From NCBI GenBank assembly GCA_904420155.1, contig CAJFUH010000207.1, positions 1-46,812 of the forward strand: a stretch of DNA of 46,812 nucleotides, read 5' to 3'. The translations under genes and the position numbers were made by a program. Every line of letters begins with the position of its first letter. Within the stretch, counting starts at the first letter, position 1. This stretch comes from an uncultured Clostridia bacterium. Lineage in GTDB: Bacteria > Bacillota > Clostridia > Oscillospirales > Acutalibacteraceae. The notes beneath the pieces are model-generated. The model was not told the origin of the DNA. It worked only from the letters and a program-made list of their open reading frames with translations, and did no database searches. This document shows positions 5,684 through 44,503 of the stretch, piece by piece.

Positions 5684-6391
5684 ATGAACAATAACTTTCC
5701 TAGAATTATTACATTGTTGCGGAAAGAACGGGGGTTAAGCCAAAAACAAGCGGCCAGCGATCTCCAAATCTCACAGGCGCTTTTATCCCATTATGAGAAG
5801 GGCATTCGGGAATGCGGGCTTGATTTTGTGGTAAAAGTTGCAGACTATTATGGAGTATCCTGCGATTATCTCTTAGGGCGCACCCCGGATCGCACAGGGG
5901 CCACTCTGACTGTAGAGGATATTCCAGACCCTGAATCGGCCGGAAAGGATAACACGTACCGGGGGAGTTTGCTGCCTACACTCAACAAAAAATTGATTGC
6001 CAATTCCCTGAATATTATTTTTGACTTATTGCAAAAAACCAACAACAAAGGGCTTACCACCGAGGTTTCTTCCTATTTAATGACTTCCGTATATAAGATG
6101 TTCCGGGTTCTCTATTCCGCCAATCCTAAAAATCCACAGGGACTGTTCGCGGCACCGGAACAAACACAGCGAGGCTTGTCTTCCGCTGCCCAGTGCATTG
6201 CAGAAGCCAACGCCATCTGTATCGCGTCGGGCAATTCTACTGGAGATGAATGGGAAGGGTTAGACAAAGAACACGCCGTACCTCTTTCTCCAGAACTTCT
6301 TTCTCAGCAATATCCCTTATTCGCATCTTCTTTGTATAATCTGATTCAAAATACGGAATCCAAAATGGGAGTAAAGAAAAGCGACAGATAG
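5684..6391 (+). CDS. XRE-family helix-turn-helix transcriptional regulator
   Basis: The start ATG 5684 follows CGGAGGG. Residues about 8-65 form a Cro/C1-type helix-turn-helix (LLRKERGLSQKQAASDLQ, then SQALLSHYEKGIRECGL and a YYGVSCDYLLGRTP end), typical of single-domain XRE regulators. The rest of the 235 residues is a helical C-terminal region of unknown function, perhaps for dimerisation or ligand sensing. It is one of the few plus-strand genes, convergent with the pseudokinase gene through a shared terminator. No operator could be identified. Confidence 0.88.
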   Translation: MNNNFPRIITLLRKERGLSQKQAASDLQISQALLSHYEKGIRECGLDFVVKVADYYGVSCDYLLGRTPDRTGATLTVEDIPDPESAGKDNTYRGSLLPTLNKKLIANSLNIIFDLLQKTNNKGLTTEVSSYLMTSVYKMFRVLYSANPKNPQGLFAAPEQTQRGLSSAAQCIAEANAICIASGNSTGDEWEGLDKEHAVPLSPELLSQQYPLFASSLYNLIQNTESKMGVKKSDR

Positions 6392-6409: not shown

Positions 6410-6452
6410 AAAAGGACAGCCTTTCGCATCTAGCGCGAAAGGCTGTCCTTTT
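6410..6452. terminator. bidirectional terminator between XRE and pseudokinase genes
   Basis: A perfect 18-bp stem (AAAAGGACAGCCTTTCGC and complement) with a seven-base loop carries A-runs on one side and T-runs on the other. It lies between two convergent stop codons. Confidence 0.9.
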
Positions 6453-6455
6453 ATG

Positions 6456-8123
6456 TCAATCAGAAGAACTTTCTTCACTGCTGCTAGGAGATTTCCCCTT
6501 GCTCACTACAATCTCTACCGTATTCCCATATTCGACTTTATCCCCCGCTACATGGCTGCGGTATCCAATCACCTGACCTGCCGGGATATAATCGTCATAA
6601 CGTTCTTCCTCACTTTTTACTGGAACGAGACCTTGAGCGGTCACCGCAGAAGCGGCTTCTGTCAAAGAATCTCCCTCAATATCCGGCAAGGTCCGCATAC
6701 GGGGGCCCTTGCTCACCTGAACGGAAATCACGGTGCCTTCCATCATCTTTTGCTCTTTTGGATCGGGGTTCTGGGAAACAATGTACCCTTCCTGGATCGT
6801 ATCGCTAAAAGTCTCGCCTATCTTCAAAATCTGATAAGAGTTGCTCTCTTGAGCCGTTTTTTCCGCATCCTCATATTTCAGATTTACCAAATTAGGGATA
6901 TCCACCTGATTCAGGCTCTCTAGCGAAGAAGAAGTATCAGACATACTGGATACCGCGGAATTTTCTCCGGAAGGATCTTTCCCCCATCCTCCACTGCCAT
7001 ATAAAATCAATAATACAATGGCAATGACCACCAGAGCAAAGATACAGGATAAAATACCCCATACAAAATTCGGAAGGCCCTTGGACTTGCTGTCGGATTT
7101 CTGGGCCGCTTTGGACGTCACCGGCGGTTTTTGCGGCGGGGCCGCCACTTCGTTTTGTACCATCGTAACGGTAGGCGCCGCAGACAGCTCAGCCCGCAGC
7201 CGTTCAAAGGTAGCGGTACGTTTTGAAGGATCTACCTGCAATCCATTGGCTAGAGCGGTAACTACATGCGGCGGGATCTCCCGCAAGATACTGGTGGGGA
7301 TCATCAACCGGGCGTCATTCTTGCGCTTTAAGGCGTCCTGGGGGAGAATTCCTGTCAGGGCGAAAAATAAACATGCAGTAAATCCATATACGTCGCTGCT
7401 TTCGCTGATAGGACCATTCATCACATACTGCTCAATGGCGGAACACCCGGGAAATAATTCTGGAATCAGATCGGTATCCATTTGGCGCACTGCCCGAATG
7501 GAAAAACCGGTCAATTTCATTTTTCCAGAACGCAGGATTACCAAGTTTTGGGGAGAAATCCCCAAATGAGATACTCCGCTGGCGTGCATAGCGCTTAGGC
7601 TGGACAGTACGGGCATAAACAGCGGCCGTATCGTATTCCAATCCGCCCGTCCCCCGCTGCGCTGGATAAATTCCTGTAAAGTGATGGATTCTACCCATTC
7701 CGATACCGTATAAGCGGTATTATTCTCCTCAAAAATATCGTAGATCGGTATCATAGAGGATAACTCCCGCAGGCGCGCTATGGCACGGAAATAACGCAGA
7801 AATTCCTCCCGATACTCTTGAAATGTTAACTCACAGCCTGGGATAATTTCAGCGGAGCTTCCTTTCCGAGACGCTAGATTCTCCGGCATGAACTCCCGAA
7901 TATACACCGGCGTACCCGCTACGGAATCATAACCGAGATATCCGATTCCTTCTCCGTTACTATCCAGACGTTTCCCTACCACATAACGATCCTGCAAAAC
8001 CGTTCTTCGGGGCAAACAGTTTACCGGCTGAGGCTGAGAATCATTGTAACCACAATGAGGACAGACTGTTTGTCCCTCTCTGTCCTTCATACATCCCATG
8101 CATAAATTGTCTAAATTTATCAT
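6456..8123 (-). CDS. membrane-bound PASTA-domain pseudokinase with zinc ribbon
   Basis: The 555-residue protein has an N-terminal zinc ribbon (CMGC at 8-11, CPHC at 21-24), an Hanks-type kinase-like domain (about 46-315), one membrane helix (about 353-376) and two extracytoplasmic PASTA domains (about 407-545). The fold resembles PrkC/Stk-type Ser/Thr kinases, but catalytic residues are lost. The VAIK lysine is Arg76 (VYIREF), the HRD-like loop reads HLGISPQN with Gly188 for the catalytic Asp, and DFG reads GFS at 206-208; the glycine loop is also degenerate. It should therefore lack phosphotransfer and act as a sensor or scaffold that binds muropeptides outside and partners inside (inference). 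GAGGG precedes ATG 8123. It is transcribed alone from the promoter at 8212-8241. Confidence 0.88.
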   Translation of the reverse strand: MINLDNLCMGCMKDREGQTVCPHCGYNDSQPQPVNCLPRRTVLQDRYVVGKRLDSNGEGIGYLGYDSVAGTPVYIREFMPENLASRKGSSAEIIPGCELTFQEYREEFLRYFRAIARLRELSSMIPIYDIFEENNTAYTVSEWVESITLQEFIQRSGGRADWNTIRPLFMPVLSSLSAMHASGVSHLGISPQNLVILRSGKMKLTGFSIRAVRQMDTDLIPELFPGCSAIEQYVMNGPISESSDVYGFTACLFFALTGILPQDALKRKNDARLMIPTSILREIPPHVVTALANGLQVDPSKRTATFERLRAELSAAPTVTMVQNEVAAPPQKPPVTSKAAQKSDSKSKGLPNFVWGILSCIFALVVIAIVLLILYGSGGWGKDPSGENSAVSSMSDTSSSLESLNQVDIPNLVNLKYEDAEKTAQESNSYQILKIGETFSDTIQEGYIVSQNPDPKEQKMMEGTVISVQVSKGPRMRTLPDIEGDSLTEAASAVTAQGLVPVKSEEERYDDYIPAGQVIGYRSHVAGDKVEYGNTVEIVVSKGKSPSSSEESSSD

Positions 8124-8211: not shown

Positions 8212-8241
8212 AGTATACCATATTTTGTTAACCAAAATCAA
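8212..8241 (-). promoter_or_regulatory. promoter of the pseudokinase gene
   Basis: TTGATT (8241-8236), an 18-base spacer and an extended -10, TGGTATACT, on the minus strand, about 90 bases before the start codon. Confidence 0.6.
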
Positions 8242-11630: not shown

Positions 11631-12299
11631 TTATCCTTCCAGTCCTCTTTGTCGATAATGATGCGCCTGTTCCAGCATCATATCTTTTACCTTCATCAGC
11701 CGGATCTGGGTGCTGCGCTCATTTTCATCCAGCTTCATGGTAATATACCGGATATTTTCCTGCATTTCCGGGATCATCACGTGTTCCAATGCATTGACAC
11801 GGCGCCTGGTCTTTTCAATTTCCGCCGCCATCAACTGGCACGACTTTTCGCATTCCGCCAGCCGTAGCATATCAGGCAAAAGTTCAGAAAGCGAATACAC
11901 AGCGGCATCCAGTTCGCTGGAAGTAAAAGCCAGACCATAGGAATAAATGTCGTTGGGGTCGGAAGTCCGGGTCTTATAGGTAAACACCGGAATTTCTACA
12001 CTCATTACATTACGCACTCCGCTTTCCAGATATACCTCCTGTTTGGGAGCCAACAGAGCGGATTGTAGAATCTCTTCCTGCATGTCTGCCCGGGCCAGCA
12101 CAAAATTCTGATTGGCCCTTGTAATCCCTTTCTCCACCTTTTCCCGCAATTGCTTATTCTCTTTGACCAGATCTAAAAACTGGCGCATCAGTTCATCCCG
12201 CTTATCTTTTAACAGCTTGTGCCCCCGCAAAGCGGTGACCAGCTTTTTTTTAAGACGGGTTAACTCCATACGGGTCGGATTGACCTGTGTCTTAGCCAA
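11631..12299 (-). CDS. ntpD: V/A-type ATPase subunit D (central stalk)
   Basis: Last gene of the operon; the 222-residue protein forms the rotating central shaft inside the A3B3 head. The N-terminus NPTRMELTRLKKKLVTA is diagnostic of subunit D, and the protein is almost entirely helical with long N- and C-terminal coiled-coil segments. It starts at TTG 12299 (AAAGGG upstream, somewhat distant), 41 bases after ntpB. In E. hirae ntpH and ntpJ follow here; neither is present. Confidence 0.95.
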   Translation of the reverse strand: MAKTQVNPTRMELTRLKKKLVTALRGHKLLKDKRDELMRQFLDLVKENKQLREKVEKGITRANQNFVLARADMQEEILQSALLAPKQEVYLESGVRNVMSVEIPVFTYKTRTSDPNDIYSYGLAFTSSELDAAVYSLSELLPDMLRLAECEKSCQLMAAEIEKTRRRVNALEHVMIPEMQENIRYITMKLDENERSTQIRLMKVKDMMLEQAHHYRQRGLEG

Positions 12300-12340
12300 G
12301 GATGCATCATCCCTTTACTTTACAAATATTGGGTTTCTCG

Positions 12341-13711
12341 CTATTTCCCATAATATCGATCTAAATATTCATCCTTAATGCGCTTTAATTCCGACCGTGG
12401 CAGAATAGAAAGCAGCTTCCAGCCGATTTTTAAGGTTTCTTCAATATCCCGATTGGCCTCATACCCCTGGGAAACATATTCTTTTTCAAAAGCGTCCGCA
12501 AATTTCGCATACAGTTTGTCGATATCGGTCAATGCCGCTTCCCCCAAAACAACCATCAGTTCCTTTGCATCTTTTCCGCGGGCATAAGCGGCGAAGAGCT
12601 GGTTCATGGTATTGGCATGGTCGGCCCGGGTCTTACCCTCTCCGATCCCCTTGTCTTTTAATCGGGACAAGGAGGGAAGCACATCAATGGGAGGCATGAT
12701 CCCCTTTCGGAACAGTTCCCGGCTGAGGATAATCTGCCCTTCTGTGATGTAGCCCGTCAAGTCCGGGATCGGATGGGTTTTATCATCTTCCGGCATGGTC
12801 AAAATCGGGATCAGAGTGATGCTGCCGTCTTTTCCTTTTTGACGGCCCGCCCTCTCATACAGGGAGGCCAAGTCGGTATACATATAACCGGGATATCCCC
12901 TGCGCCCTGGCACCTCTTTTCGGGCTGCGGAAACTTCACGCAGGGCGTCTGCATAATTGGTGATATCCGTCATAATAACCAGTACATGCATCCCCTGATC
13001 AAATGCCAGATATTCCGCCGCAGTGAGCGCCATGCGAGGGGTGGCAATCCGTTCAATAGCCGGGTCATTGGCCAGATTGATAAATAGGACCGTACGGTCG
13101 ATGGCTCCTGTCTCCTGGAAACTCTCAATAAAAAAATTGGATTCTTCAAAAGTAATCCCCATCGCTGCAAAGACCACGGCAAAAGGTTCCTTGGTCCCCC
13201 GTACCTTCGCCTGTCTTGCAATTTGGGCGGCCAGGTTGGCATGGGGAAGGCCGCTGGCGGAAAAGATCGGCAGCTTCTGCCCACGCACTAAGGTATTGAG
13301 GCCGTCAATGGCGGAAACCCCTGTCTGGATAAATTCCTGTGGATAATTGCGGGCGGCTGGATTCATAGGCAGGCCGTTGATATCTATCCTTTTTTCCGGC
13401 AGAATATCAGGCCCTCCATCTATGGGCCTGCCCAATCCATCAAATACGCGGCTGAGCATATCTTTGGAGACCCCTAATTCCATACTTCTTCCCAGAAAAC
13501 GCACCTTGCTGTTGCTTAAATTGATCCCGGTAGCGCTTTCAAATAGCTGTACCAGCGCATTGCCGCCGTCAATCTCCAGCACTTTGCAGCGCCGTCTTTC
13601 CCCGCTGGCCAATTCGATTTCCCCCAGCTCATTGTAGGCCACGCGGTCCACTCCCCGTACCAGCATGAGAGGACCCGCCACTTCTTCAATGGTTCTATAT
13701 TCTTTGGGCAT
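12341..13711 (-). CDS. ntpB: V/A-type ATPase subunit B (non-catalytic)
   Basis: The 456-residue subunit alternates with A in the hexameric head. It has the beta-barrel start ([14 protein letters not shown]), [10 protein letters not shown], and a nucleotide-binding-like region [20 protein letters not shown], in which the P-loop is absent as expected for B subunits, followed by [20 protein letters not shown]. The start ATG overlaps the ntpA stop in an ATGA arrangement behind GGAGGAGG, indicating translational coupling and matched A:B production. Confidence 0.97.
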
Positions 13712-15483
13712 CAGTAGTCCTCCTCCTTTTGCGCGGCTTCGTCGATCTCCAATGCCAGTTGGTGCAGGATTTCTTCATACTCCTGTTCCACTTCATCCCC
13801 CGGCACATATTTAAAGCGCCCAATCCGTTCCCGGACCGGCAGGCCCACCAAGCGTTCCACAGAGATTCCCCGTTTTAAAGCCTGTTCCGCTTGCTGAGAA
13901 TAATCCATGACCAATTGCATCATCAAATGCTGTTTGTGCAATGGGGTGTAAGTGTCCACCTCATGGAAGGCATCCTGGTGAAGGAAGTCCTCCCGGATGG
14001 ATCGCGCGGCTTCCAGTTTCAGGCGGTCCGGGGCCGACAAGGCGTCCATCCCTACCAATTTTACGATTTCTTCCAGTTCCGATTCTTCCTGCAGCAAACG
14101 CATCAGTTTTCCTCGCAGTTCCATCCAATCGGAGGCTACCTGGCTATTGAACCATTTTGCCATGGTATCCACATACAGGGAATAGCTGGTCAGCCAATTG
14201 ACTGCTGGGAAGTGCCGTTTATAAGCGAGGTTGGAATCCAGCCCCCAGAAAACTTTGACGATGCGCAGCGTGGCCTGGGATACCGGTTCGGAGATATCCC
14301 CGCCCGGCGGGGACACCGCCCCAATGACAGAGAGCGCCCCCTCCCTTGCTTCGCTTCCCAATGTCACCACACGGCCGGCACGTTCGTAAAACTGGGCAAG
14401 GCGGCTTCCCAAATAGGCAGGGTATCCTTCCTCTCCTGGCATCTCTTCCAAGCGGCCGGACATCTCCCGCAGCGCCTCCGCCCACCGGGAGGTGGAATCC
14501 GCCATCAGCGCCACTGAATAGCCCATATCCCGGAAATACTCCGCAATTGTGATGCCGGTATAGATCGAGGCTTCCCGGGCCGCTACCGGCATATCTGAGG
14601 TATTAGCGATCAATACCGTCCGTTTCATCAGCGAATAGCCGGTCTTGGGGTCGATCAGTTCCGGGAACTCATTGAGCACATCGGTCATTTCATTGCCCCG
14701 TTCTCCGCAGCCGATGTATACCACGATATCCGCTTCCGCCCATTTGGCCAGCTGGTGCTGTACCACTGTCTTTCCGCTGCCAAACGGCCCCGGAACCGCC
14801 GCTACACCTCCCTTTGCAATGGGAAACAAGGTATCGATCACCCTTTGTCCGGTCACCAGCGGCATATCTGGAGAAAGTTTTCTCTGATAAGGGCGGCCCA
14901 GCCGTACCGGCCATTTTTGCATGAGGGTGAGATTCTGGCTGGTTCCATTGGGGGTATCCACCACAGCTACCGTTTCCTCCAGGGTATAATCCCCCTCTTG
15001 GATAGAACGGATGGTTCCCATCACGCCGCTGGGTACCATAATTTTGTGAAGTACAATTTCAGTCTCTTGCACAGTGCCTATGATATCCCCGCCAACTACG
15101 GAATCCCCCTTTTGGACAGACGGCGTAAAGCGCCATTTTGTTTCCCTGTTTAAAGCCGGTACTTCCACTCCGCGCTGTAAGTTGTTCCCCGAAATTCTCA
15201 TAATTTCGTCCAAAGGGCGCTGAATGCCGTCAAAGATGCTGCCGATCAGTCCCGGCCCCAATTCTACGCTCATGGGAGCCCCTGTGGATTCCACCGGTTC
15301 CCCCGGTCCCAGCCCGGAAGTCTCTTCATATACCTGAATGGAAGCCCTATCCCCATGCATTTCGATGATCTCGCCGATCAGCCTTTGTTCGCTCACGCGG
15401 ACCACATCGAACATATTGGCATCCCGCATGCCTTTGGCGATTACCAGCGGGCCCGCCACTTTTTGGATGGTACCTTTGCTCAT
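13711..15483 (-). CDS. ntpA: V/A-type ATPase subunit A (catalytic)
   Basis: The 590-residue catalytic subunit carries the Walker A motif [11 protein letters not shown], the A-subunit-specific non-homologous region before it, [13 protein letters not shown], and the Walker B area [18 protein letters not shown]. Length is normal for archaeal/bacterial A subunits. The AGGTGATAGAGAG leader precedes ATG 15483. It hydrolyses or synthesises ATP in the cytoplasmic head, coupled to ion movement through NtpI/NtpK. Confidence 0.98.
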
Positions 15484-15501
15484 CTCTCTATCACCTGTTT
15501 T

Positions 15502-15822
15502 CTAAGTTTCATTAAAAATGATATCGGAACCCACCGCCTGTTCTACAGATTTTTTGACCATCTGAACTCCCATCCCCGTATTGCCTGATATTCCGGGAAT
15601 GGGAATAATCGCTGGAAGCGGCGCGCTTCTGTAATGATCCAGCTCCCTTTCCAATTCCTTCGCCAACGCTTCGGTGATATAAATAACTGCATAATCCCTT
15701 TCTGCCAATTGACGCAGGATTTTTCCGGCCTTCGCCGGTTCATTTTCTGGAAAGATTTCCAATCCCAGCGCTGCAAATCCATAGATGCTATCCCAATCTC
15801 CCATCACAGCGACCTTATACAT
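15502..15822 (-). CDS. ntpG: V/A-type ATPase subunit F (NtpG)
   Basis: A 106-residue Rossmann-like small subunit that binds subunit D at the central stalk. The N-terminus MYKVAVMGDWDSIYGFAALG matches the family pattern of Gly-Asp-x-Asp-Ser followed by a hydrophobic loop. Its start overlaps the end of ntpC by eight bases, and it precedes ntpA, the standard operon position. Confidence 0.93.
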   Translation of the reverse strand: MYKVAVMGDWDSIYGFAALGLEIFPENEPAKAGKILRQLAERDYAVIYITEALAKELERELDHYRSAPLPAIIPIPGISGNTGMGVQMVKKSVEQAVGSDIIFNET

Positions 15823-16774
15823 ACAAATCCCGCAACCTTTCTTTTACAATCCGATCATCCAATCGGTTCCTTTTCCCCGATAAGATCAAGCGTACCGCCT
15901 TGATCTCCGTCTCCCTGGCCAACAAATAAGCCACCAGCGGACCAATGGTGAACGGGTTGGTTTTCTGGGTTTTCATCAGCTTCATACGGTTGTCATCACA
16001 CCATTTTTCAAAAGCGGAAGACGACTGCGCAAGAGCTTCTACCCCTTGGGCATAGTCCGTATGAGACAAGTATTCCATCACAGCATCCTGTCCGGAAACC
16101 GCCGCGCGGGCCAGATCACCGATATCTAAACTTTCACAGGGCACCATAGCCTCCTGGAAAAAGCCTAAGGGCTTTCCCAGTTTTTGTCCCCGAACAGCTA
16201 TCTTAATGTTGGATATCGCCAGCAGAAGCTCCGCATACCTTTGGATCAGATGGTTTTCCGACTGCCGCCCCGCCTTTTGTATTTGCAATAAGGCGGCCCG
16301 ATCCAAAACAGTATCGCATAATTGTCCATCCCTTGTGTGCAGCAAAGTTTCAAACGCTTTCGCTGCGGATGCTTGCATATCCTCGGGCAAATCCGAAAAA
16401 CGGTGATTGCGTACAGCCTCTTCCAGTACTTCCGGTTCTATTGTGCCCCAGAGAAGATATCTCCTTTCCGGATATCTATCTGTTACCACTGATTTAATAG
16501 CGGTTTTCAGATTGTGATAATCCGCTGGAATCAAAAAAATGCGAAACCCTGTAAGATTTGGGACCAGTTCCCGAAGAAATTCCCACGTCTTGCACGTTTC
16601 TACAGAAAGGATCGTCTCCCTTTCCCCGTCTTTTCCCCATCCTTTTTCATATAAGATCTGCAAGCACTCTTCCTCTGTTTGACATTCCATCAGCTGCTCT
16701 AAGTCCTGTTGGGTCAATAAGGAGAGTTCTTTTGCCCGCACCCGGGAAATCGCATACGTATACTCTTCCGCCAA
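15815..16774 (-). CDS. ntpC: V/A-type ATPase subunit C
   Basis: Subunit C (homologous to eukaryotic V-ATPase subunit d) joins the central rotor to the membrane ring. I prefer TTG 16774, which follows AAAGGGGG by seven bases, over the track's ATG 16795, which has no site; the protein is then 319 residues beginning AEEYTYAISRVRAKE, the typical subunit C start. It is mostly helical with three related bundles and the LIPADYHNLKTAIKS segment. Confidence 0.92.
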   Translation of the reverse strand: MAEEYTYAISRVRAKELSLLTQQDLEQLMECQTEEECLQILYEKGWGKDGERETILSVETCKTWEFLRELVPNLTGFRIFLIPADYHNLKTAIKSVVTDRYPERRYLLWGTIEPEVLEEAVRNHRFSDLPEDMQASAAKAFETLLHTRDGQLCDTVLDRAALLQIQKAGRQSENHLIQRYAELLLAISNIKIAVRGQKLGKPLGFFQEAMVPCESLDIGDLARAAVSGQDAVMEYLSHTDYAQGVEALAQSSSAFEKWCDDNRMKLMKTQKTNPFTIGPLVAYLLARETEIKAVRLILSGKRNRLDDRIVKERLRDLYV

Positions 16775-16801
16775 CCGAAATCCCCCTTTCCACATATTCT
16801 T

Positions 16802-17401
16802 TTACAAAGCTGAATGGAATAGCTTCTCCTGCACTTCATCTTGCAGCAATTCCTGAGAAGATTCAAACAAAGCCTGGAAGGAACAATTCTCCTCCACTCC
16901 GCCGTATACCAGCACAAACCCTCCGTCGATCTCTACAGTCTGTGGGGAAATCCGCAATACCGCGCCGTTGGGAAGCTCCTGCTGTACCCGCTGGGCGAAC
17001 CCTTCCGGCATCCTTTGGAAATCCGTGGAGGAAAATTTAATCTCCCCTTCCTGTTTCCAGGCATATTTTTTTACCAATTGAATCAACAAATCAAAATATT
17101 CTTTTTTAGGAAGACAGTACAGCGATTCTTTCGCACCCTGTACCACCTCCTGAATCAAGCGCTGTTTTTCTTCTAACAACCGTTTCCTGCATAACAGGTC
17201 TGCGGCGGACCGCAAACGGGCCATCCGTTCTTCCGACGCCCGGATGGCGCTCTCTTTTAACTCCCGCCTCTTTCTCTGGGCGTTTTTCTCCCCTTCCTGC
17301 CGGATGCGCCGCGCTTCTTCTTTGCCCTCTTGTATATTTCTTTCCGCAATCTCTTCTGCATCTCTGCGGATTTGCTCCACAATTTTATCCAGCCCTGTCA
17401 T
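16802..17401 (-). CDS. ntpE: V/A-type ATPase subunit E (peripheral stalk)
   Basis: A 199-residue subunit whose N-terminal half is a long charged coiled coil (DKIVEQIRRDAEEIAERN onward, with right-handed heptad/hendecad character), followed by a globular C-terminal domain (EIDGGFVLVYGGVEENCSF) that clamps the head. It pairs with the NtpF-type subunit to form the stator. AAGGAGAGCTGTCT precedes ATG 17401. Confidence 0.94.
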   Translation of the reverse strand: MTGLDKIVEQIRRDAEEIAERNIQEGKEEARRIRQEGEKNAQRKRRELKESAIRASEERMARLRSAADLLCRKRLLEEKQRLIQEVVQGAKESLYCLPKKEYFDLLIQLVKKYAWKQEGEIKFSSTDFQRMPEGFAQRVQQELPNGAVLRISPQTVEIDGGFVLVYGGVEENCSFQALFESSQELLQDEVQEKLFHSAL

Positions 17402-17439
17402 AGACAGCTCTCCTTACTTATGGATTCTGCACAGTCCCC

Positions 17440-19945
<2,506 letters not shown>

Positions 19946-19998
19946 AATCATTCCTCCTCTCTCTGAATATCCGGGAAAACAAGGAGAACGGTATCAAA

Positions 19999-20307
19999 CT
20001 AAAAAATGCTCTTTAAAATATCTTTCTGGATTTCTCCTTGCTTTTGCTGGACCGATCGGCGAAGCTGCTGAATCTGCTTCTCCACTTCCTGCATCTTCTC
20101 GTTCTTCTCCACTTCCACCTGTTGTTCTACCTGTTGGAAGAGCTCTTCTTTCAGGACGCTTGCTTCTTTTGCAACCTGTTCCATTTTGATTTCTACATCC
20201 CGGCGCGCCTGGTCCACCATTTCTTTTTTCTGTTGCAGGCTTTCCTGTTCGATCTGTTCCGCCTGTCTTTCCGCCTGCCGAACCTCGTTAATCGCCTCCT
20301 GCGCCAA
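19999..20307 (-). CDS. ntpF: V/A-type ATPase subunit H/G-like coiled-coil stator subunit (NtpF)
   Basis: First gene of the operon: a 102-residue, highly charged continuous coiled coil (ERQAEQIEQESLQQKK and onward) with no other fold, as in NtpF/subunit H of bacterial V/A-ATPases, which partners subunit E. It starts at TTG 20307, seven bases after AGGAGG. Identity rests mainly on operon position (F-I-K-E-C-G-A-B-D order) and coiled-coil character. Confidence 0.85.
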   Translation of the reverse strand: MAQEAINEVRQAERQAEQIEQESLQQKKEMVDQARRDVEIKMEQVAKEASVLKEELFQQVEQQVEVEKNEKMQEVEKQIQQLRRSVQQKQGEIQKDILKSIF

Positions 20308-22838: not shown

Positions 22839-25800
22839 TTATTTACTTTCTTCTACGATTGGCAAATAGTCGTAGGATACGCCGTTCTCAAACTGAATAT
22901 GCTGTGTTCCGGAAACCGGCTCTAGTACGAATTCTCCCACCAGTGTGGTTCCGTCATCGCGGTATAAAATGCCTTTACCCTGGGGTTTGCCTTGACAAAA
23001 ACATCCCGTATATCGATGGTCCTGATATAACAGGGTCCCTTTGCCGTGTGGAACCCCGTCCTTTAGCTGTCCGGAGTATACGCCGCCATTTTGGCTCTGT
23101 TCCACTACATATACCGGAGCGGTACAGAATTTGCCGTATTCCGTATTCAACAAGGTCTCTTGTTCCGGCAGAGGGGAAAGCGTCCGGAGGCTTACCTTCA
23201 TACTTTTTCTCAATACTCCATCTACAAAGATGCCTTCTTCCTTCTTTTCTCCAAAGGGGGTAAAAAAGCAGCCCATGCCGTTGGGTTTCCCATCCAAAAT
23301 GTTTCCTTCAAATTGCAGGGTTTCATTTTCCAGGTCATACCGTTTGACATAAATGAGCATTCCATTCTCATAAACCCCTTCTTCATATACTTTTCCGTCC
23401 CGGATAGTATTGGCCCTCCCGTGCAATTTGCCTTTTTGAAATTCTCCCGCATATTTGGCCTGTCCATCTTCGTAGAGCACGCCCGCGCCGTCATATAAAT
23501 CAGCTTTCCAAAGGCCTGCGTACTGTAACTTTCCGTCTTGATAACTGCATCCGTAGCCGTCCCTTTCATTATTTTTAAAATTACCGGAAAAGACATAATT
23601 CCCATTCTGATATTGGTATCCATGCCCATTATAACAGTTATCCCGAAAACTGCCCTCATAGACTTTTTCTCCCTGGTAGTAGTAACTGCCTTCCCCGCAA
23701 AACTGGTCGTCTTTCCATTCTCCTTCATAAACAAGCTGACCCTGGGCATCAAATCCCTTGAGGTATCCCTGGGGAAGTCCTTTTTGAAAAAGTCCTTGGT
23801 ATTTTCCTCCACTGGGGAAAAATTTACATCCTTGTCCATGGTACTGCCCATTCTCCCAATCGCCTTCATAGCATTTAAAACCATGGGCATCATATTCCGC
23901 CGCCCAGCCATGGACTTGACCGTTTTGAAACTGACCCTGGATCATATGGCCATTGTCCAAATGCAGCGTGCCTTCGCCTTCGTACCGGTTGTCCTTCCAC
24001 ATTCCGCTGTAAAGGGCTTCCCCGGATTCCCGATATTCTGTCCCAAACCCATTTCTTTTACAGTCTTTCCAGCCTCCTGTATACAATAGGTTTCCTTCTC
24101 CGTCAAATTCCGTGCCTTTTCCTGTCAATACGTCGTCTTTCCATTGGCCTACGAAAATTCTGCCGTCTTGAGCGTGATAAGTAACGCCCGCCCCCTGACG
24201 TTTGCCGTTTTCCCAACGGCCGGAAAACAGGAGATTCCCATTGCTGTCGAAGCGAGATCCCATTCCCACTGGGAGATCCTCCTCCCAACGCCCCACCTGA
24301 ATGGTCCCGTCATGTGGGCGGAAGGCAACTCCTGTGCCGTGCCGCTTATTGGCTTTCCAGTTTCCAGCATAACAGAGCCGGCCTGTCTTATAATAATAAA
24401 CGCCAAATCCTTCCCGCTTATCTGTTTCATACGTCCCTTCATAAGCGGTACAGCCGTTCTGCATGATGGTCCTTCCCCGGCCTTGCCGTTTCCCATCTAT
24501 TACATTTCCATAGTAATAATAGCTCTCTCCCGGAGCGACATCAATACGCATTTTCCCTTGGATAGCATAGGGACATCCATTTTCCACCCCATTGCACCCT
24601 GCGGTATGCCGGCAAGTCTCTTCTGCGTCATCATAAATCAGGGCCTCGTCTTCTTCCTCTTGCTTAGGGGAAGATTGTCTCATAGGGGGAATGGATCCCA
24701 GATAGGTATCTTTCGCCATGGGTTTTACCATTACATTGTAACGGCGGTATGTATGAATTTGCTCCTGCTTTTCTTCTGTCGTCTCCGGATGCCGAGGCAT
24801 CAAAGATTCGTCGGGAATTTTCCGGTCATATGTATATGCCGGTTCTTCTTTCGGAACGGGAGGCTCCTCACAACAAGGCACTTCCTGTGCCACTGGGGGA
24901 GTTGACTCCAATTTTGGAACTTCTTCTTCCAGCTTCTGAGGCGGTTCTTCCTCCTGGGATAGATCTTCCTTCCTCTCTTCTAATACCGGTTCGGGATCTT
25001 CCTGTTTTTCCAGCTCCTCATATTTTTTTAATTCCGGAGAACTGGCTCCCCACTGATAACTGTCAATATTTTCATAGCGGCTTAAAGCCGCTTCCACTTC
25101 CGATTTCAGTTGTTCCACCTGTTTGCCCTTATTTTCCGTCAGCAGTAATTCTTTGGATATAGGCAACATTGATTCTTGATCCGGTTCGGTGGGATCTTCC
25201 ACATGAAACCCGTCTTCCCGATCGGCTTCCCCGGCAGTCTCTTCCGGCTTTCTTTCGGGACTGAACAAAGGCTTGGCCTGGTTCCCGTTTCGTATCGCTT
25301 GCAGCACTGTTTTCCGCCGTTCCACTTCTTCCGCCCGGCAAAAGTAGAAATCCCCTTTATTGGTTCTGGCAACCACCTCCGGGATCCCTGCAGCCCCATT
25401 GAGCAAGGTTAATTCCTCTGAATCTTCCGGGATCCCACAAGGATATAATTCATATCCATTCTCTTCCCCCGCGCGAGGCGCATATTCCTTGACCACGATG
25501 GCTTCCCCTCCCCGCACCGGCATTAAAATAGAAGTGGGAATCTTTCTCACATCGGGAGAAAAATATTCTGTCCGTTTCCAACGGTGGTCAAAATCAAAAA
25601 AAGCAGCCTTCCGAATATGTTTCTGAGCATCCTGTGTGACGATTTGATAACTACCGTCTGATTCAGCAAAGCTTTTTTCTAAAAGACGATAACCAGCCAG
25701 CTTTTTCCACTTCATAGGATTTCCGTTTTCTAATAAATAGGAATATCGGTAATCCATTCCATCGGACCGCCGGACCACTTTATTTTTTAGCCGTTGTCCA

Positions 25801-25916
25801 TTGGTAAAAAAATCACGGCGAAGTTCGTAAAACAAATCGTCTTTTGCAGCTCCCCCGTCATATCTCGCATAGTAAATCGCATAAAACTGCGTCATTTGCT
25901 GTTCATTGTTCGACAT
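22839..25916 (-). CDS. large MORN-repeat protein
   Basis: A 1025-residue soluble protein. Residues 1-210 form an unrecognised N-terminal domain (MTQFYAIYYARYDGGAAKDD start). Residues about 215-440 are a Pro/Glu/Lys-rich linker with a conserved-looking CRHTAGCNGVENGC cysteine cluster at 435-448. From about 467 to 1005 I count roughly 20 MORN units of 22-24 residues, such as YAGNWKANKRHGTG and FSGRWENGKRQGAG; two near 845-900 are degenerate and are followed by a non-repeat insert. MORN repeats form an extended beta-meander and bind lipids or proteins in eukaryotes; bacterial roles are largely unknown. No signal peptide or membrane helix. It has its own promoter and terminator. Confidence 0.92.
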   Translation of the reverse strand: MSNNEQQMTQFYAIYYARYDGGAAKDDLFYELRRDFFTNGQRLKNKVVRRSDGMDYRYSYLLENGNPMKWKKLAGYRLLEKSFAESDGSYQIVTQDAQKHIRKAAFFDFDHRWKRTEYFSPDVRKIPTSILMPVRGGEAIVVKEYAPRAGEENGYELYPCGIPEDSEELTLLNGAAGIPEVVARTNKGDFYFCRAEEVERRKTVLQAIRNGNQAKPLFSPERKPEETAGEADREDGFHVEDPTEPDQESMLPISKELLLTENKGKQVEQLKSEVEAALSRYENIDSYQWGASSPELKKYEELEKQEDPEPVLEERKEDLSQEEEPPQKLEEEVPKLESTPPVAQEVPCCEEPPVPKEEPAYTYDRKIPDESLMPRHPETTEEKQEQIHTYRRYNVMVKPMAKDTYLGSIPPMRQSSPKQEEEDEALIYDDAEETCRHTAGCNGVENGCPYAIQGKMRIDVAPGESYYYYGNVIDGKRQGRGRTIMQNGCTAYEGTYETDKREGFGVYYYKTGRLCYAGNWKANKRHGTGVAFRPHDGTIQVGRWEEDLPVGMGSRFDSNGNLLFSGRWENGKRQGAGVTYHAQDGRIFVGQWKDDVLTGKGTEFDGEGNLLYTGGWKDCKRNGFGTEYRESGEALYSGMWKDNRYEGEGTLHLDNGHMIQGQFQNGQVHGWAAEYDAHGFKCYEGDWENGQYHGQGCKFFPSGGKYQGLFQKGLPQGYLKGFDAQGQLVYEGEWKDDQFCGEGSYYYQGEKVYEGSFRDNCYNGHGYQYQNGNYVFSGNFKNNERDGYGCSYQDGKLQYAGLWKADLYDGAGVLYEDGQAKYAGEFQKGKLHGRANTIRDGKVYEEGVYENGMLIYVKRYDLENETLQFEGNILDGKPNGMGCFFTPFGEKKEEGIFVDGVLRKSMKVSLRTLSPLPEQETLLNTEYGKFCTAPVYVVEQSQNGGVYSGQLKDGVPHGKGTLLYQDHRYTGCFCQGKPQGKGILYRDDGTTLVGEFVLEPVSGTQHIQFENGVSYDYLPIVEESK

Positions 25917-39544: not shown

Positions 39545-41794
39545 TTATTCAACCTGATCTTGAGTAACAAATTCTACTTCTATCACGGTACCAGGGCTCA
39601 CCTGCGTACCCTCTTCCATACTTTGAGATACCGAAACCACTGTCTCCCCTTCAGCAGGATTCCAGGCTCCGGAGATCTTGATATTGAGCCCTGCGTTGAC
39701 CGCTGTCTCATTGGCCTGCGCCATGGACAATTGGGTTAGCTTGGGAACCGTCACAGTGGAAGCAGCCGACTGCGTATCGGTAAACAGCACCACCCGGCCA
39801 TTCTTTGGAATGGATTTTCCCTGCCCCGGAATCTGCGAAAGTACCGTCTGGGCGCCTTCAGAAGGGCCGTAAACCTGATAGGTTAATCCCGCCTGTTCCA
39901 AAGCAGTTTTGGCTTCCGCTAAAGACATACCGCCCACATTTGGGGTCACCGTATCTTGTTCTTCCAACTCCGATTCATTAAACCGGCGTTCTACGCCCAG
40001 ATATGGCAATATCTCCTCCATCACGCTGCGGAAGGTAGGGGCGGCTACATAACTTCCGTAGTAGCTATCCCCTTTCGGCGTATCGTAAAATACCAGCATC
40101 GCTACCTGCGGATCATCGGAAGGGGCAAACCCGCAAAAAGAGGAAATATAGTCCTTCACGCCTTCCTGCATGCTCTGGCCAATCTTTTCCGACGTCCCGG
40201 TTTTGCCCGCGATGCGATATCCGGGAATATACCCGTTTTTGCCGGAACCCTCTACCGCATTAATCCGGAGGTATTCGCATAACTGCTGGGAAGTTTCTTC
40301 TGAAACCACCCGGCGTTTGACCGTGGTATCGGCGGACCGAATCACTGTTCCGTCATCGTCGATGATCTCTTCCATCAGGTGGGGCTGTACCAGGTTCCCC
40401 CCATTGGCCACCGCAGCTACCGCGGTGAGCATCTGGATGGGGGTTACCGTCAGGCCCTGCCCGAAGGAACCGATCGCTAAGTCCAAATCGGTCATAGCGC
40501 CCACCACGCCTCCGGCATTGAAGAACTGCCCTTTGGCCTCTCCGGGAAGATCGATTCCTGTCCGCTCCTGGAACCCAAACGCGCAAAAATAATCATAAAA
40601 CTTTTCTTTCCCCACCATGGCTCCCAGCTTTCCAAATGCCGGGTTACAGGAATTGCATAAAGCCTGCAAAAAAGTTTGGTGGCCGTGACCGGTGGTTTTG
40701 TGGCACTTAATCTTCCTCCCACTCTGTATAAAGTATCCGGGACAATCAAATGTTGTCTGCTCTGTCACTACATGTTCTTCCATCCCCATCGCCGATGTAA
40801 TAATCTTAAAGACTGACCCGGGATAATAGTTATCAGAGACCGCTTTGTTTCTCCATTGTTCCCCCAGCGCCTCTGTACGGGCCGCCGCCCTCTCTTCCTC
40901 CGGCAGCGTTTCAATCTCCGCCGCTTTCACTTCGTCAGTGATGGTAAAAGGATCGTTGGGGTCAAAATCTTCTTTGATTGCCATCCCCAGTATCGCGCCG
41001 GTATTGACATCCATTACAATCGCGGCGGCCCTCTGTTTTACCTGATTGGCTTGAATGCCTTCCTCTAGATGCCTTTCCAACGAATACTGCACAAATTTAT
41101 CAATAGATAACCTGATGTGGTGTCCGCTTTGGGCGGGCTCCATCTGTTCATAATCATAAGGCATATCCGTGCCCTGGGCATTCTTAGCCGTTACCAGCTT
41201 TCCAGGCTCTCCTGTCAGCTCTTCGTCATACTGTTTTTCCAACCCGGAAAGTCCTTGGCTGTCGGTCCCGGTAAACCCCAGCACCACTGCCGCTAAATTA
41301 TTGTCGTTGGGATAATAACGCTGATAATCTTCGATGAGCCGAATGCCTGCTGTGATTTCATGCTCCGCCTTGAAGGCAACGATCTGGTCCTTGATTTCGC
41401 TCTCCACTTTACGTTTGACAATGGTATGGTACGATTTGGTATTGCTTGCCTTTTCCAGCAGAACGGATTCTTCCATCCCTAAGATTTCGGATAAGCCCTT
41501 GGCCACTTCCGCCCGGACGGTATCGTCCTTTAAGTAGACGGGTTCCAACACTACCGTCCAGACAGAAGCGCTTTCCGCCAAAGGCTCCCCGTTTCGATCC
41601 AAAATACTCCCACGTTTGGCGTTGATCGCAGTGTCGGCCAACTGCTGGGCAATGGCCTTTTCCTGCAAATCCTGGCCGTCGATCAATTGCAGTTTCACCA
41701 ACCGCACCGCTATGATTCCAAAACCAACGATTACCAATCCAATTAGGACCATCAAAGACCTTCTCCACATTCTTACGGTAGTTCCCTTCGCCAT
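39545..41794 (-). CDS. class B penicillin-binding protein with two PASTA domains (second copy)
   Basis: A 749-residue FtsI/SpoVD-type transpeptidase. One N-terminal membrane helix (about 14-32), PBP dimerisation domain (RGSILDRNGEPLA), and transpeptidase domain with SxxK S327-K330 (PGSVFKI), SxN S382-N384 (NSCNPAF) and KTG 531-533 (AGKTGTSEK), so the active site is intact. Two PASTA domains occupy about 617-680 and 683-745. Cys351 and Cys364 before the SxN motif recall the redox cysteines of SpoVD. GGGGGAGAATCGCAGG precedes ATG 41794. It is strikingly similar to the PBP upstream. One of the pair may serve division and the other sporulation, as with pbpB and spoVD in Bacillus, but the assignment is open. 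Confidence 0.95.
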   Translation of the reverse strand: MAKGTTVRMWRRSLMVLIGLVIVGFGIIAVRLVKLQLIDGQDLQEKAIAQQLADTAINAKRGSILDRNGEPLAESASVWTVVLEPVYLKDDTVRAEVAKGLSEILGMEESVLLEKASNTKSYHTIVKRKVESEIKDQIVAFKAEHEITAGIRLIEDYQRYYPNDNNLAAVVLGFTGTDSQGLSGLEKQYDEELTGEPGKLVTAKNAQGTDMPYDYEQMEPAQSGHHIRLSIDKFVQYSLERHLEEGIQANQVKQRAAAIVMDVNTGAILGMAIKEDFDPNDPFTITDEVKAAEIETLPEEERAAARTEALGEQWRNKAVSDNYYPGSVFKIITSAMGMEEHVVTEQTTFDCPGYFIQSGRKIKCHKTTGHGHQTFLQALCNSCNPAFGKLGAMVGKEKFYDYFCAFGFQERTGIDLPGEAKGQFFNAGGVVGAMTDLDLAIGSFGQGLTVTPIQMLTAVAAVANGGNLVQPHLMEEIIDDDGTVIRSADTTVKRRVVSEETSQQLCEYLRINAVEGSGKNGYIPGYRIAGKTGTSEKIGQSMQEGVKDYISSFCGFAPSDDPQVAMLVFYDTPKGDSYYGSYVAAPTFRSVMEEILPYLGVERRFNESELEEQDTVTPNVGGMSLAEAKTALEQAGLTYQVYGPSEGAQTVLSQIPGQGKSIPKNGRVVLFTDTQSAASTVTVPKLTQLSMAQANETAVNAGLNIKISGAWNPAEGETVVSVSQSMEEGTQVSPGTVIEVEFVTQDQVE

Positions 41795-41975: not shown

Positions 41976-44216
41976 TTATGCGATGTTATCCTGTTCGACA
42001 AATACCACCTCTATCACTGTGCCCGGGCTCACTTGTGCCCCGGCCTCTATACTTTGGGAAACGGAAATTTCCGCATCCCCGGAAGAATCACCTGATCCTG
42101 CGCTGGATACGCGGATATTGAGCCCCACCGCGGCGGCCTCCTGTGTGGCACGAGTGATGGACATTTGCGTAAGGTTGGGAACTTCCACTGTTTTTTCCAT
42201 AGATTCTTGGTCGGTATAAAGGACCACCAAACCGTCTTTCGGGATTTCTTTTCCTTGCTCCGGCACCTGAGAAAGTACCGTCTGATTATCGTCCGTCGGT
42301 CCATAAACCCGATAAGTAAGCCCCGCCTGTTCCAAGTTCTTTTTCGCTTCCGCCAAAGTAATGCCCGCTACCCCCGGCGTCTGGGTATCCTGGTTTTCCA
42401 ATTCGGAATCGCTATACTTACGCTCAATCCCCAGATAGGGAAGGATCTCTTTCATCACGTTCCGAAACGTGGGTGCCGCCACATAACTGCCGTAGTAATT
42501 ATCTCCCTGGGGTTCATCGTAAAATACCAGCATGGCGATCTGTGGATTATCCGCGGGGGCAAATCCGCAGTAAGACGCAATGTACAGCCCGTTGTTCTTG
42601 GGGTTCTTTTCCGATGTGCCTGTTTTCCCCGCGATGCGGTATCCGGGGACATAACCATTCTTTCCCGATCCCTGTACCGCATTGATACGCAGCATCTCAC
42701 ACATGCGCTGTGAGGTTTCCTCGGAAATAATCTGCCGTTTGGTTTCTGTACTGGACGTTTTCACAATATTCCCATTTTCATCCACAATCTGCTCTACCAC
42801 ATGGGGCTGTACCAGATATCCTCCATTGGCCACCGCCGCCACCGCAGTCAACATTTGGATAGGCGTGACGGTAAAACCCTGTCCAAAGGAAGCGATTGCC
42901 AAATCCAGATCCGTCATGCTGCCCGCTATTCCGCCCTCCTGGAAGAACTGGCCTTTGGCCTCTCCCGGAAGGTCGACCCCTGTTTGTTCTGAAAATCCAA
43001 ACCCTTGATAGTATTCGTAAAATTTATCCTTTCCTACCAGTTTACCCAAATCGTGGAAGGCCGGGTTACAGGAGTTACACAGAGCCTGCAAAAAGGTCTG
43101 TTGCCCATGCCCGCTTCGGACATGGCAATGCACTGCCGTTCCATTTTCCACGAATACGCCGCTGCAATAAAAAGACGACTGTTCATTGACCACGTTCTCT
43201 TCCAGCCCCATGGAAGCGGTAATAATCTTAAAGACAGAACCGGGTTCATAGTTATCCGCTATGGCTTTGTTTCTCCATTGTTCGTTTAACGCGTCTGATT
43301 CCGCCTGCTGTTGGTTTTCTTCGGGTAATGTATTAATTTCCGCCGCTTTTAGGGGGTCGGCAACAGTAAAGGGATCGTTGGGGTCATAATCTCCCTTAAT
43401 AGCCATCCCTAAAATCGATCCTGTATTGACATCCATTACCACAGCCAAGGCCCGGTTCTCCACTTGGTTGTTTTGAATTCCCTCTTCCAGGTTGCGTTCC
43501 AAGGTATATTGGATAAATTTATCAATAGATAGCTTCAAGTCATATCCATTACGGGCCGGCACCATTTGTTCGTAATCATAAGGCATGTCCGTGCCCTGGG
43601 CATTTTTGGAAGCGATCAACCGGCCGGGAACTCCTGTCAATTCATTGTCGTATTGTAATTCCAAGCCCTCCAGCCCGTGTCCATCCGTTCCGGTAAACCC
43701 CAATACCACCGATAATAAATTGTTATCGTTGGGATAATAGCGTTTGTAATCCTCTACCAAACGGATGCCGACGGTAATTTCGTGATCTTTCTTGAAAGCT
43801 TCAATCTGTTCTTTAACGTCGCTCTCCACTTTGCGCTTGACAACCGTATAGTAGGAGTTTTGCTGATTGGCCTTTTCTAACAGCACCGATTCATCCATGC
43901 CTAATATTTCCGACAGTCCTTTGGCAACCTCCGCCCGTTCCTGATCGTCTTCAAAATAGACGGGCTCCAACACCACTGTCCATACCGACGCGCTCTCAGC
44001 CAATAGGTTTCCATTGCAGTCCAAAATACTACCGCGTTCCGCACTGATGGTGGTATCCGCCAACTGTTGGCCCACCGCTTTTTTTTGTAGTTCGTCCCCT
44101 TGGACGATTTGCAGCCATATCAGCCGCACCGCAATGGCACAGAATCCCAACACTACCAGCACAATAAGCACAACGAGCGATCTCTTCCATAGCCTAGCGG
44201 TTGGTTGATTCTTCAT
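41976..44216 (-). CDS. class B penicillin-binding protein with two PASTA domains (first copy)
   Basis: I place the start at ATG 44216 (MKNQPTARLWKRS), eight bases after GGGAGG; 746 residues. Architecture and active-site motifs match the downstream PBP: membrane helix, RGSILDCNGNLLA, PGSVFKI with the catalytic Ser327, NSCNPAF, AGKTGTSEK and two C-terminal PASTA domains. The first 330 residues align with the neighbour without a gap. By direct count, residues 51-110 are identical at 49 of 60 positions and 201-270 at 51 of 70. It follows ftsL after a 287-base gap holding stems GAGAGTT/AACTCTC and CCCTTTT/AAAAGGG, which might attenuate or delay transcription into the PBPs. Confidence 0.95.
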   Translation of the reverse strand: MKNQPTARLWKRSLVVLIVLVVLGFCAIAVRLIWLQIVQGDELQKKAVGQQLADTTISAERGSILDCNGNLLAESASVWTVVLEPVYFEDDQERAEVAKGLSEILGMDESVLLEKANQQNSYYTVVKRKVESDVKEQIEAFKKDHEITVGIRLVEDYKRYYPNDNNLLSVVLGFTGTDGHGLEGLELQYDNELTGVPGRLIASKNAQGTDMPYDYEQMVPARNGYDLKLSIDKFIQYTLERNLEEGIQNNQVENRALAVVMDVNTGSILGMAIKGDYDPNDPFTVADPLKAAEINTLPEENQQQAESDALNEQWRNKAIADNYEPGSVFKIITASMGLEENVVNEQSSFYCSGVFVENGTAVHCHVRSGHGQQTFLQALCNSCNPAFHDLGKLVGKDKFYEYYQGFGFSEQTGVDLPGEAKGQFFQEGGIAGSMTDLDLAIASFGQGFTVTPIQMLTAVAAVANGGYLVQPHVVEQIVDENGNIVKTSSTETKRQIISEETSQRMCEMLRINAVQGSGKNGYVPGYRIAGKTGTSEKNPKNNGLYIASYCGFAPADNPQIAMLVFYDEPQGDNYYGSYVAAPTFRNVMKEILPYLGIERKYSDSELENQDTQTPGVAGITLAEAKKNLEQAGLTYRVYGPTDDNQTVLSQVPEQGKEIPKDGLVVLYTDQESMEKTVEVPNLTQMSITRATQEAAAVGLNIRVSSAGSGDSSGDAEISVSQSIEAGAQVSPGTVIEVVFVEQDNIA

Positions 44217-44503
44217 CTGATCGACCTCCCAAAGACATAACATGTTTTTCCGCCGGAATGCAGGAAAAACAAAAGGATTGACAAAATTCTCAATCGAGAT
44301 TCCAAACTTTCCAAATCAATCTTTTGTACCCTTTCCCACACGGCATCTACCAGGAATAAAATTCTTTTAAAACGATATTCCCTTCTTCATTCCCTTTTTA
44401 AAAGGGCTATCAGCAGAAATACAAAATGAGAGTTAAGATTATCTCTCAACTCTCTCGTACACAATATGTATAAATCAAAGTACCTTTGCTTTGTGTTTCC
44501 CTT

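Follow-up and report, generated by a model that had tools for sequence, protein, structure and literature searches.

An old, probably non-catalytic PASTA pseudokinase family in gut Clostridia and its possible connection to PrkC

The DNA analysed here, which we call the window, is a stretch of 46,812 nucleotides (contig CAJFUH010000207.1) from an uncultured Clostridia bacterium of the family Acutalibacteraceae. The gene of concern is a single open reading frame on its minus strand (6456..8123, ATG start), which encodes a 555-residue protein that joins a kinase-fold domain lacking its catalytic residues to a membrane helix and two PASTA domains. The known PASTA receptors are active kinases and penicillin-binding proteins. 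In the present family the loss of the catalytic residues appears to be old and extends to almost every relative in two bacterial families of the gut, and the protein is very probably functional without catalysis. What, then, might it do? We tentatively favour the view that it tunes the cell's active PASTA kinase, PrkC, an account that we rate close to an even chance.

Results

The initial annotation described the gene as a PASTA pseudokinase with a zinc ribbon, and that architecture was borne out; the coordinates of its parts all refer to the minus strand. The kinase-fold domain (residues 46-312; 7188..7988) was recognized by Pfam Pkinase at 43.6 bits (cut-off 31.7), and also by AlphaFold2 and Foldseek. 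PASTA (PF03793) matches two stretches at 71.4 bits, over the Pfam cut-off, with domain 1 (6708..6905) at 45.5 bits and domain 2 (6498..6692) at 39.1 bits, and a PASTA match is found in 41 of 41 orthologues. The AlphaFold2 model, built from 41 orthologues, has a mean predicted local distance difference test score (pLDDT) of 85.9, and consists of a bilobal kinase fold (pLDDT about 95), one helix and two PASTA folds. That helix, residues 352-376, is the membrane helix (6996..7070), as the sequence also indicates. The zinc ribbon is a Cys4 zinc-ribbon-like knuckle at residues 8-24 (8052..8102). Though it scores under the Pfam cut-off (Zn_ribbon_3, 12.8 bits versus 27), the cysteines are conserved: all 41 orthologues have C11, C21 and C24, and the 34 rows long enough to include C8 all have it as well.

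A kinase is counted as a pseudokinase when at least one of the β3 Lys, the HRD Asp and the DFG Asp is lost, and here all three are gone. As the initial annotation had it, R76 (7896..7898) stands at the VAIK Lys of β3, G188 (7560..7562) at the HRD Asp, giving HLG, and G206 (7506..7508) at the DFG Asp, giving GFS. Two lesions go beyond that annotation. The αC Glu, which is present in 25 of 26 active relatives and in no pseudokinase, is replaced by Y111 (7791..7793), and the glycine loop, G-G-F-G in active relatives, reads N56-G-E-G59 (7947..7958); N56 occurs in 86% and E58 in 84% of the pseudokinases, and both in 0% of the active kinases. From these losses, the protein would be expected neither to bind nucleotide nor to transfer phosphate.

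Are these substitutions peculiar to one strain? They are instead family-wide. In an alignment of 41 sequences, which counts the window's own protein, the HRD Asp is Gly in all 41, with HxG throughout; the αC Glu and the DFG Asp are likewise absent from all 41, the latter position reading GFS or GFC; in 40, Arg or His takes the place of the β3 Lys, and 32 lack the catalytic-loop Asn. A wider census, of families f1, f21 and f22, took in 42 genomes, in one of which a contig end truncates the copy. Here the HRD Asp position is Gly in 34, Ala in six, Leu in one and Asp in none, while the β3 Lys is kept in 9/42 and the DFG Asp in 10/42. On these counts, the lesion that stays constant is loss of the HRD Asp, and the rest vary. 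A subgroup of f22 (loci L114-L118) keeps the DFG Asp (IDFQ or VDFQ) and mostly the β3 Lys, with HRG replacing HRD, and represents an intermediate stage of decay.

Genome contigs were scanned for relatives of the pseudokinase, which gave 57 loci. Strong matches, nearly all full length, are present in 137 of the 150 sampled species of Acutalibacteraceae, where the nearest named relatives are Gallacutalibacter and Caproiciproducens; several of the non-carriers have reduced genomes near 1 Mb in size. A second family, f22, is represented by at least 20 carrier genomes, and f21 by one. Outside these families, order- and class-wide searches returned as best matches either the kinase part only or PrkC-like proteins.

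Against the closest orthologue, at 83% identity, the proportion of nonsynonymous differences (pN) is 0.082 in the kinase domain, where the synonymous proportion (pS) is 0.79, near saturation. In the PASTA part pN is 0.134, and in the outer linker 0.484; the constraint is thus tighter on the dead kinase fold than on the sensor. Pseudokinases and active kinases alike retain the scaffold residues of the C-lobe, H186, E231, Q232, D244, R267 and R302. Strong selection together with the retained scaffold therefore suggests that the dead domain is maintained for a non-catalytic task, and because the lesions recur across a family under strong purifying selection, they are more than chance.

From which kinases did the family descend? 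We built a tree of the kinase domain from 56 pseudokinases and 45 active zinc-ribbon kinases, with the lesion columns masked and long rows left out. One branch parts the two groups, with support of 100/100. A quick tree gave the same split, with a value of 92 in the Shimodaira-Hasegawa-like approximate likelihood ratio test, a long-branched pseudokinase at locus L090 falling outside. The nearest solved structure is PpkA (5x1r), both by sequence (E value 4e-17) and by Foldseek comparison of fold (E value 9e-20). Since the tree splits in this way and PpkA is nearest on both measures, the pseudokinase appears to be a dead branch of the zinc-ribbon, PpkA-like kinases. A decayed PrkC is ruled out by the same grouping and by the PpkA match. 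PASTA domains also occur on some active zinc-ribbon kinases (3/18). Among the zinc-ribbon kinases examined outside the carrier families, motifs are intact in all except the L090 protein. The latter (L090:8466-9800) is a second, separate pseudokinase, without PASTA, with Arg, Asn and Gly at the Lys, HRD Asp and DFG Asp positions, and it lies directly 3' of four tandem active zinc-ribbon kinases.

The initial annotation envisaged binding to an active PASTA kinase encoded elsewhere. The window's own genome does encode one, of 700 residues with intact VAIK, HRD and DFG motifs, adjoining a PP2C phosphatase gene, and a canonical PASTA kinase scores over the NCBIfam cut-off in 41 of 41 other carrier genomes tested. 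The only other match of the Pkinase search in the genome is a small kinase open reading frame (L002:1471-2157) with HRD and DFG and without PASTA, just 3' of a reading frame with zinc-ribbon-like cysteine motifs. In the genome designated G194 the gene order is prpC-prkC-rsgA-pseudokinase, and the rsgA-pseudokinase spacing is similar in G600, another species of the same genus. BLAST comparison of PrkC, RsgA, PrpC and FHA sequences with the flanking open reading frames found no such neighbour.

Of the other features of the window, several adjoin the gene. AGAGGG lies shortly upstream of the ATG, and a promoter-like TTGATT-18-TATACT, with TG before the -10, is found on the minus strand at 8212..8241, though the consensus scan that gave it is within chance (two found versus 3.1 expected). 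Directly 3' of the stop codon, between the gene and the convergent gene at 5684-6391, is an inverted repeat with a 14-bp stem (6414..6448), read from the sequence and absent from the output of the consensus scan, which is likely a two-way terminator. Farther off are a V-type ATPase operon (11631-20307); a 1025-residue protein with many MORN-like repeats (22839-25916), beside a metallo-beta-lactamase-fold-like protein; and, in a division gene cluster, two tandem, closely similar penicillin-binding proteins with two PASTA domains each (39545-41794 and 41976-44243).

Discussion

A non-catalytic reading of the kinase domain is strongly supported by the residue patterns, and a binding role for it is well supported, because the lesions, their conservation, the selection, the tree split and the presence of an intact PASTA kinase and PP2C phosphatase in the genome all bear on it. 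We picture a single-pass membrane protein, of an old and conserved PASTA pseudokinase family, whose two extracellular PASTA domains presumably recognize fragments or precursors of peptidoglycan; wall sensing and ligand binding would follow from what the PASTA domains suggest. The kinase-shaped cytosolic domain would transfer no phosphate and would work as a binding module. By contact through the cytosolic domains or through the ectodomains, the protein might tune the activity or the substrate choice of PrkC. That the output passes through PrkC is the more doubtful step, and we hold it to be possible at somewhat less than an even chance.

The best functional precedent is CD2148 of Clostridioides difficile, a membrane-anchored degenerate Hanks kinase that exists alongside PrkC and lacks the catalytic-loop Asp and Asn (PMC8262956, PMC9674922). 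CD2148 is located in the membrane, partly at midcell, and modulates PrkC output; its loss is accompanied by chaining and by increased phosphorylation of CwlA, a substrate of PrkC (PMC8262956, PMC9674922). On this precedent, and on the linkage seen in one genus, PrkC is a plausible partner. Several observations weigh against it. PrkC-type kinases are also common in families without the pseudokinase, and because they are so widespread, co-occurrence with PrkC is weak evidence. Linkage to prkC is likewise weak evidence, since of about 100 genera only one shows it, a frequency attainable by chance. Across 40 pseudokinase loci there is no conserved neighbour gene. Finally, CD2148 lacks PASTA domains.

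Might the protein be a substrate of PrkC rather than its modulator? Here the pseudokinase would be a scaffold like MviN (MurJ), in which PrkC phosphorylates the juxtamembrane tail, a phosphothreonine reader docks, and wall synthesis is regulated. The tail after the kinase fold (residues 313-351) is predicted to be disordered by AlphaFold2 and, in the closest pair, is conserved (pN 0.098, versus 0.484 for the outer linker), and a PTVT motif is common to several close relatives, though not to the wider family. The genome yielded a single FHA protein, which would be a fitting reader; in it the FHA domain is fused to a SEDS (FtsW/RodA-like) glycosyltransferase (L106:205-1911, contig C113), and its gene adjoins an MltG-like gene. 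The fusion does not follow the pseudokinase, however. It occurs in families f11, f12 and f14 of the order, which are without the pseudokinase, and in the f22 genomes that have the pseudokinase no clear copy was found, only one weak match; as an obligate partner it was rejected on this phyletic mismatch. The precedent is the MviN pseudokinase (ActPs3), a wall-related membrane protein with a dead kinase domain that is regulated by a PASTA kinase; it is described there as actinobacterial, with an activation-loop deletion and other lesions, and without PASTA (PMC12599244). On balance we regard such a scaffold as rather unlikely.

Alternatively, the receptor may need no phosphorylation at all: the PASTA domains would sense the wall, and the dead kinase domain would bind division or wall-synthesis proteins, a branch of signalling that bypasses PrkC and has become fixed in two gut families. 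A stand-alone gene with no conserved prkC linkage is consistent with this, as is the conserved C-lobe scaffold, but the gene neighbourhood points to no partner, and we consider this unlikely.

One might also ask whether the family retains some catalysis, by metal-independent ATP binding or by transfer of AMP or glutamate, as in SelO or SidJ. The β3 Lys and DFG Asp kept by some members would favour this, and in some families pseudokinases with β3 Lys changed to Arg may bind nucleotides (PMC12599244). Against it, neither the HRD Asp nor the αC Glu is ever present, a conserved acidic residue of the glycine loop is situated where phosphates would lie, and the 555-residue protein itself lacks the Lys, the Glu, the HRD Asp and the DFG Asp, so that we judge residual catalysis very improbable. 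A decaying gene or a strain-specific mutation has a negligible chance, and is ruled out by the shared lesions, the strong purifying selection and the full-length open frames found even in orthologues whose identity falls to about 30%.

How does the family compare with known systems? The 2025 review of bacterial pseudokinases covers ActPs1-3, GLW, CP1, DYD, DLHK, EssB, SidJ and SelO (PMC12599244). Where defining features were compared, none of its families seems to match. The DYD pseudokinases have a DYD motif salt-bridged to the β3 Arg and keep a canonical HRD and/or DFG (PMC12599244), whereas the aligned sequences of the present family have HxG and GFS or GFC at these places. ActPs2, which is actinobacterial, has Asn at the HRD Asp and a DFG deletion (PMC12599244); here there is Gly at that Asp and no gap at DFG. 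ActPs3 is described by its activation-loop deletion and actinobacterial range (PMC12599244), while the activation segment of the pseudokinase is about as long as that of active relatives. In GLW pseudokinases GLW replaces HRD (PMC12599244), in contrast to the HLG of the window's protein and the HxG of all 41 aligned sequences. A literature search found no description of the present family, though the primary 42-family classification might contain one.

The PASTA kinases PrkC, PknB and StkP (NF033483) are alike in their cytosolic kinase fold, one membrane helix and extracellular PASTA domains, but the pseudokinase scores 140.4 bits with that model, under its cut-off of 450. It differs from them in lacking intact catalytic motifs, in having the N-terminal Cys4 knuckle, and in a kinase domain that groups with the zinc-ribbon kinases. 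Those clostridial GGFGITY / VAIKEY kinases, which are PpkA-like, are of the same lineage. They keep the β3 Lys, HRD Asp and DFG Asp (26/26, and all class-wide relatives examined), and, unlike the pseudokinase, nearly all keep the αC Glu and GGFG. The kinase domain of Serratia PpkA (PDB 5x1r, 5hnv) is the best match by sequence and fold, with Lys (AIKEYMP) where the pseudokinase has Arg, and the solved part of PpkA is without PASTA. The conserved union of a presumed wall-binding part with a dead kinase, found in almost all species of one gut family and also in a second, makes it possible to test directly whether PASTA signalling works without phosphotransfer and how PrkC output is tuned.
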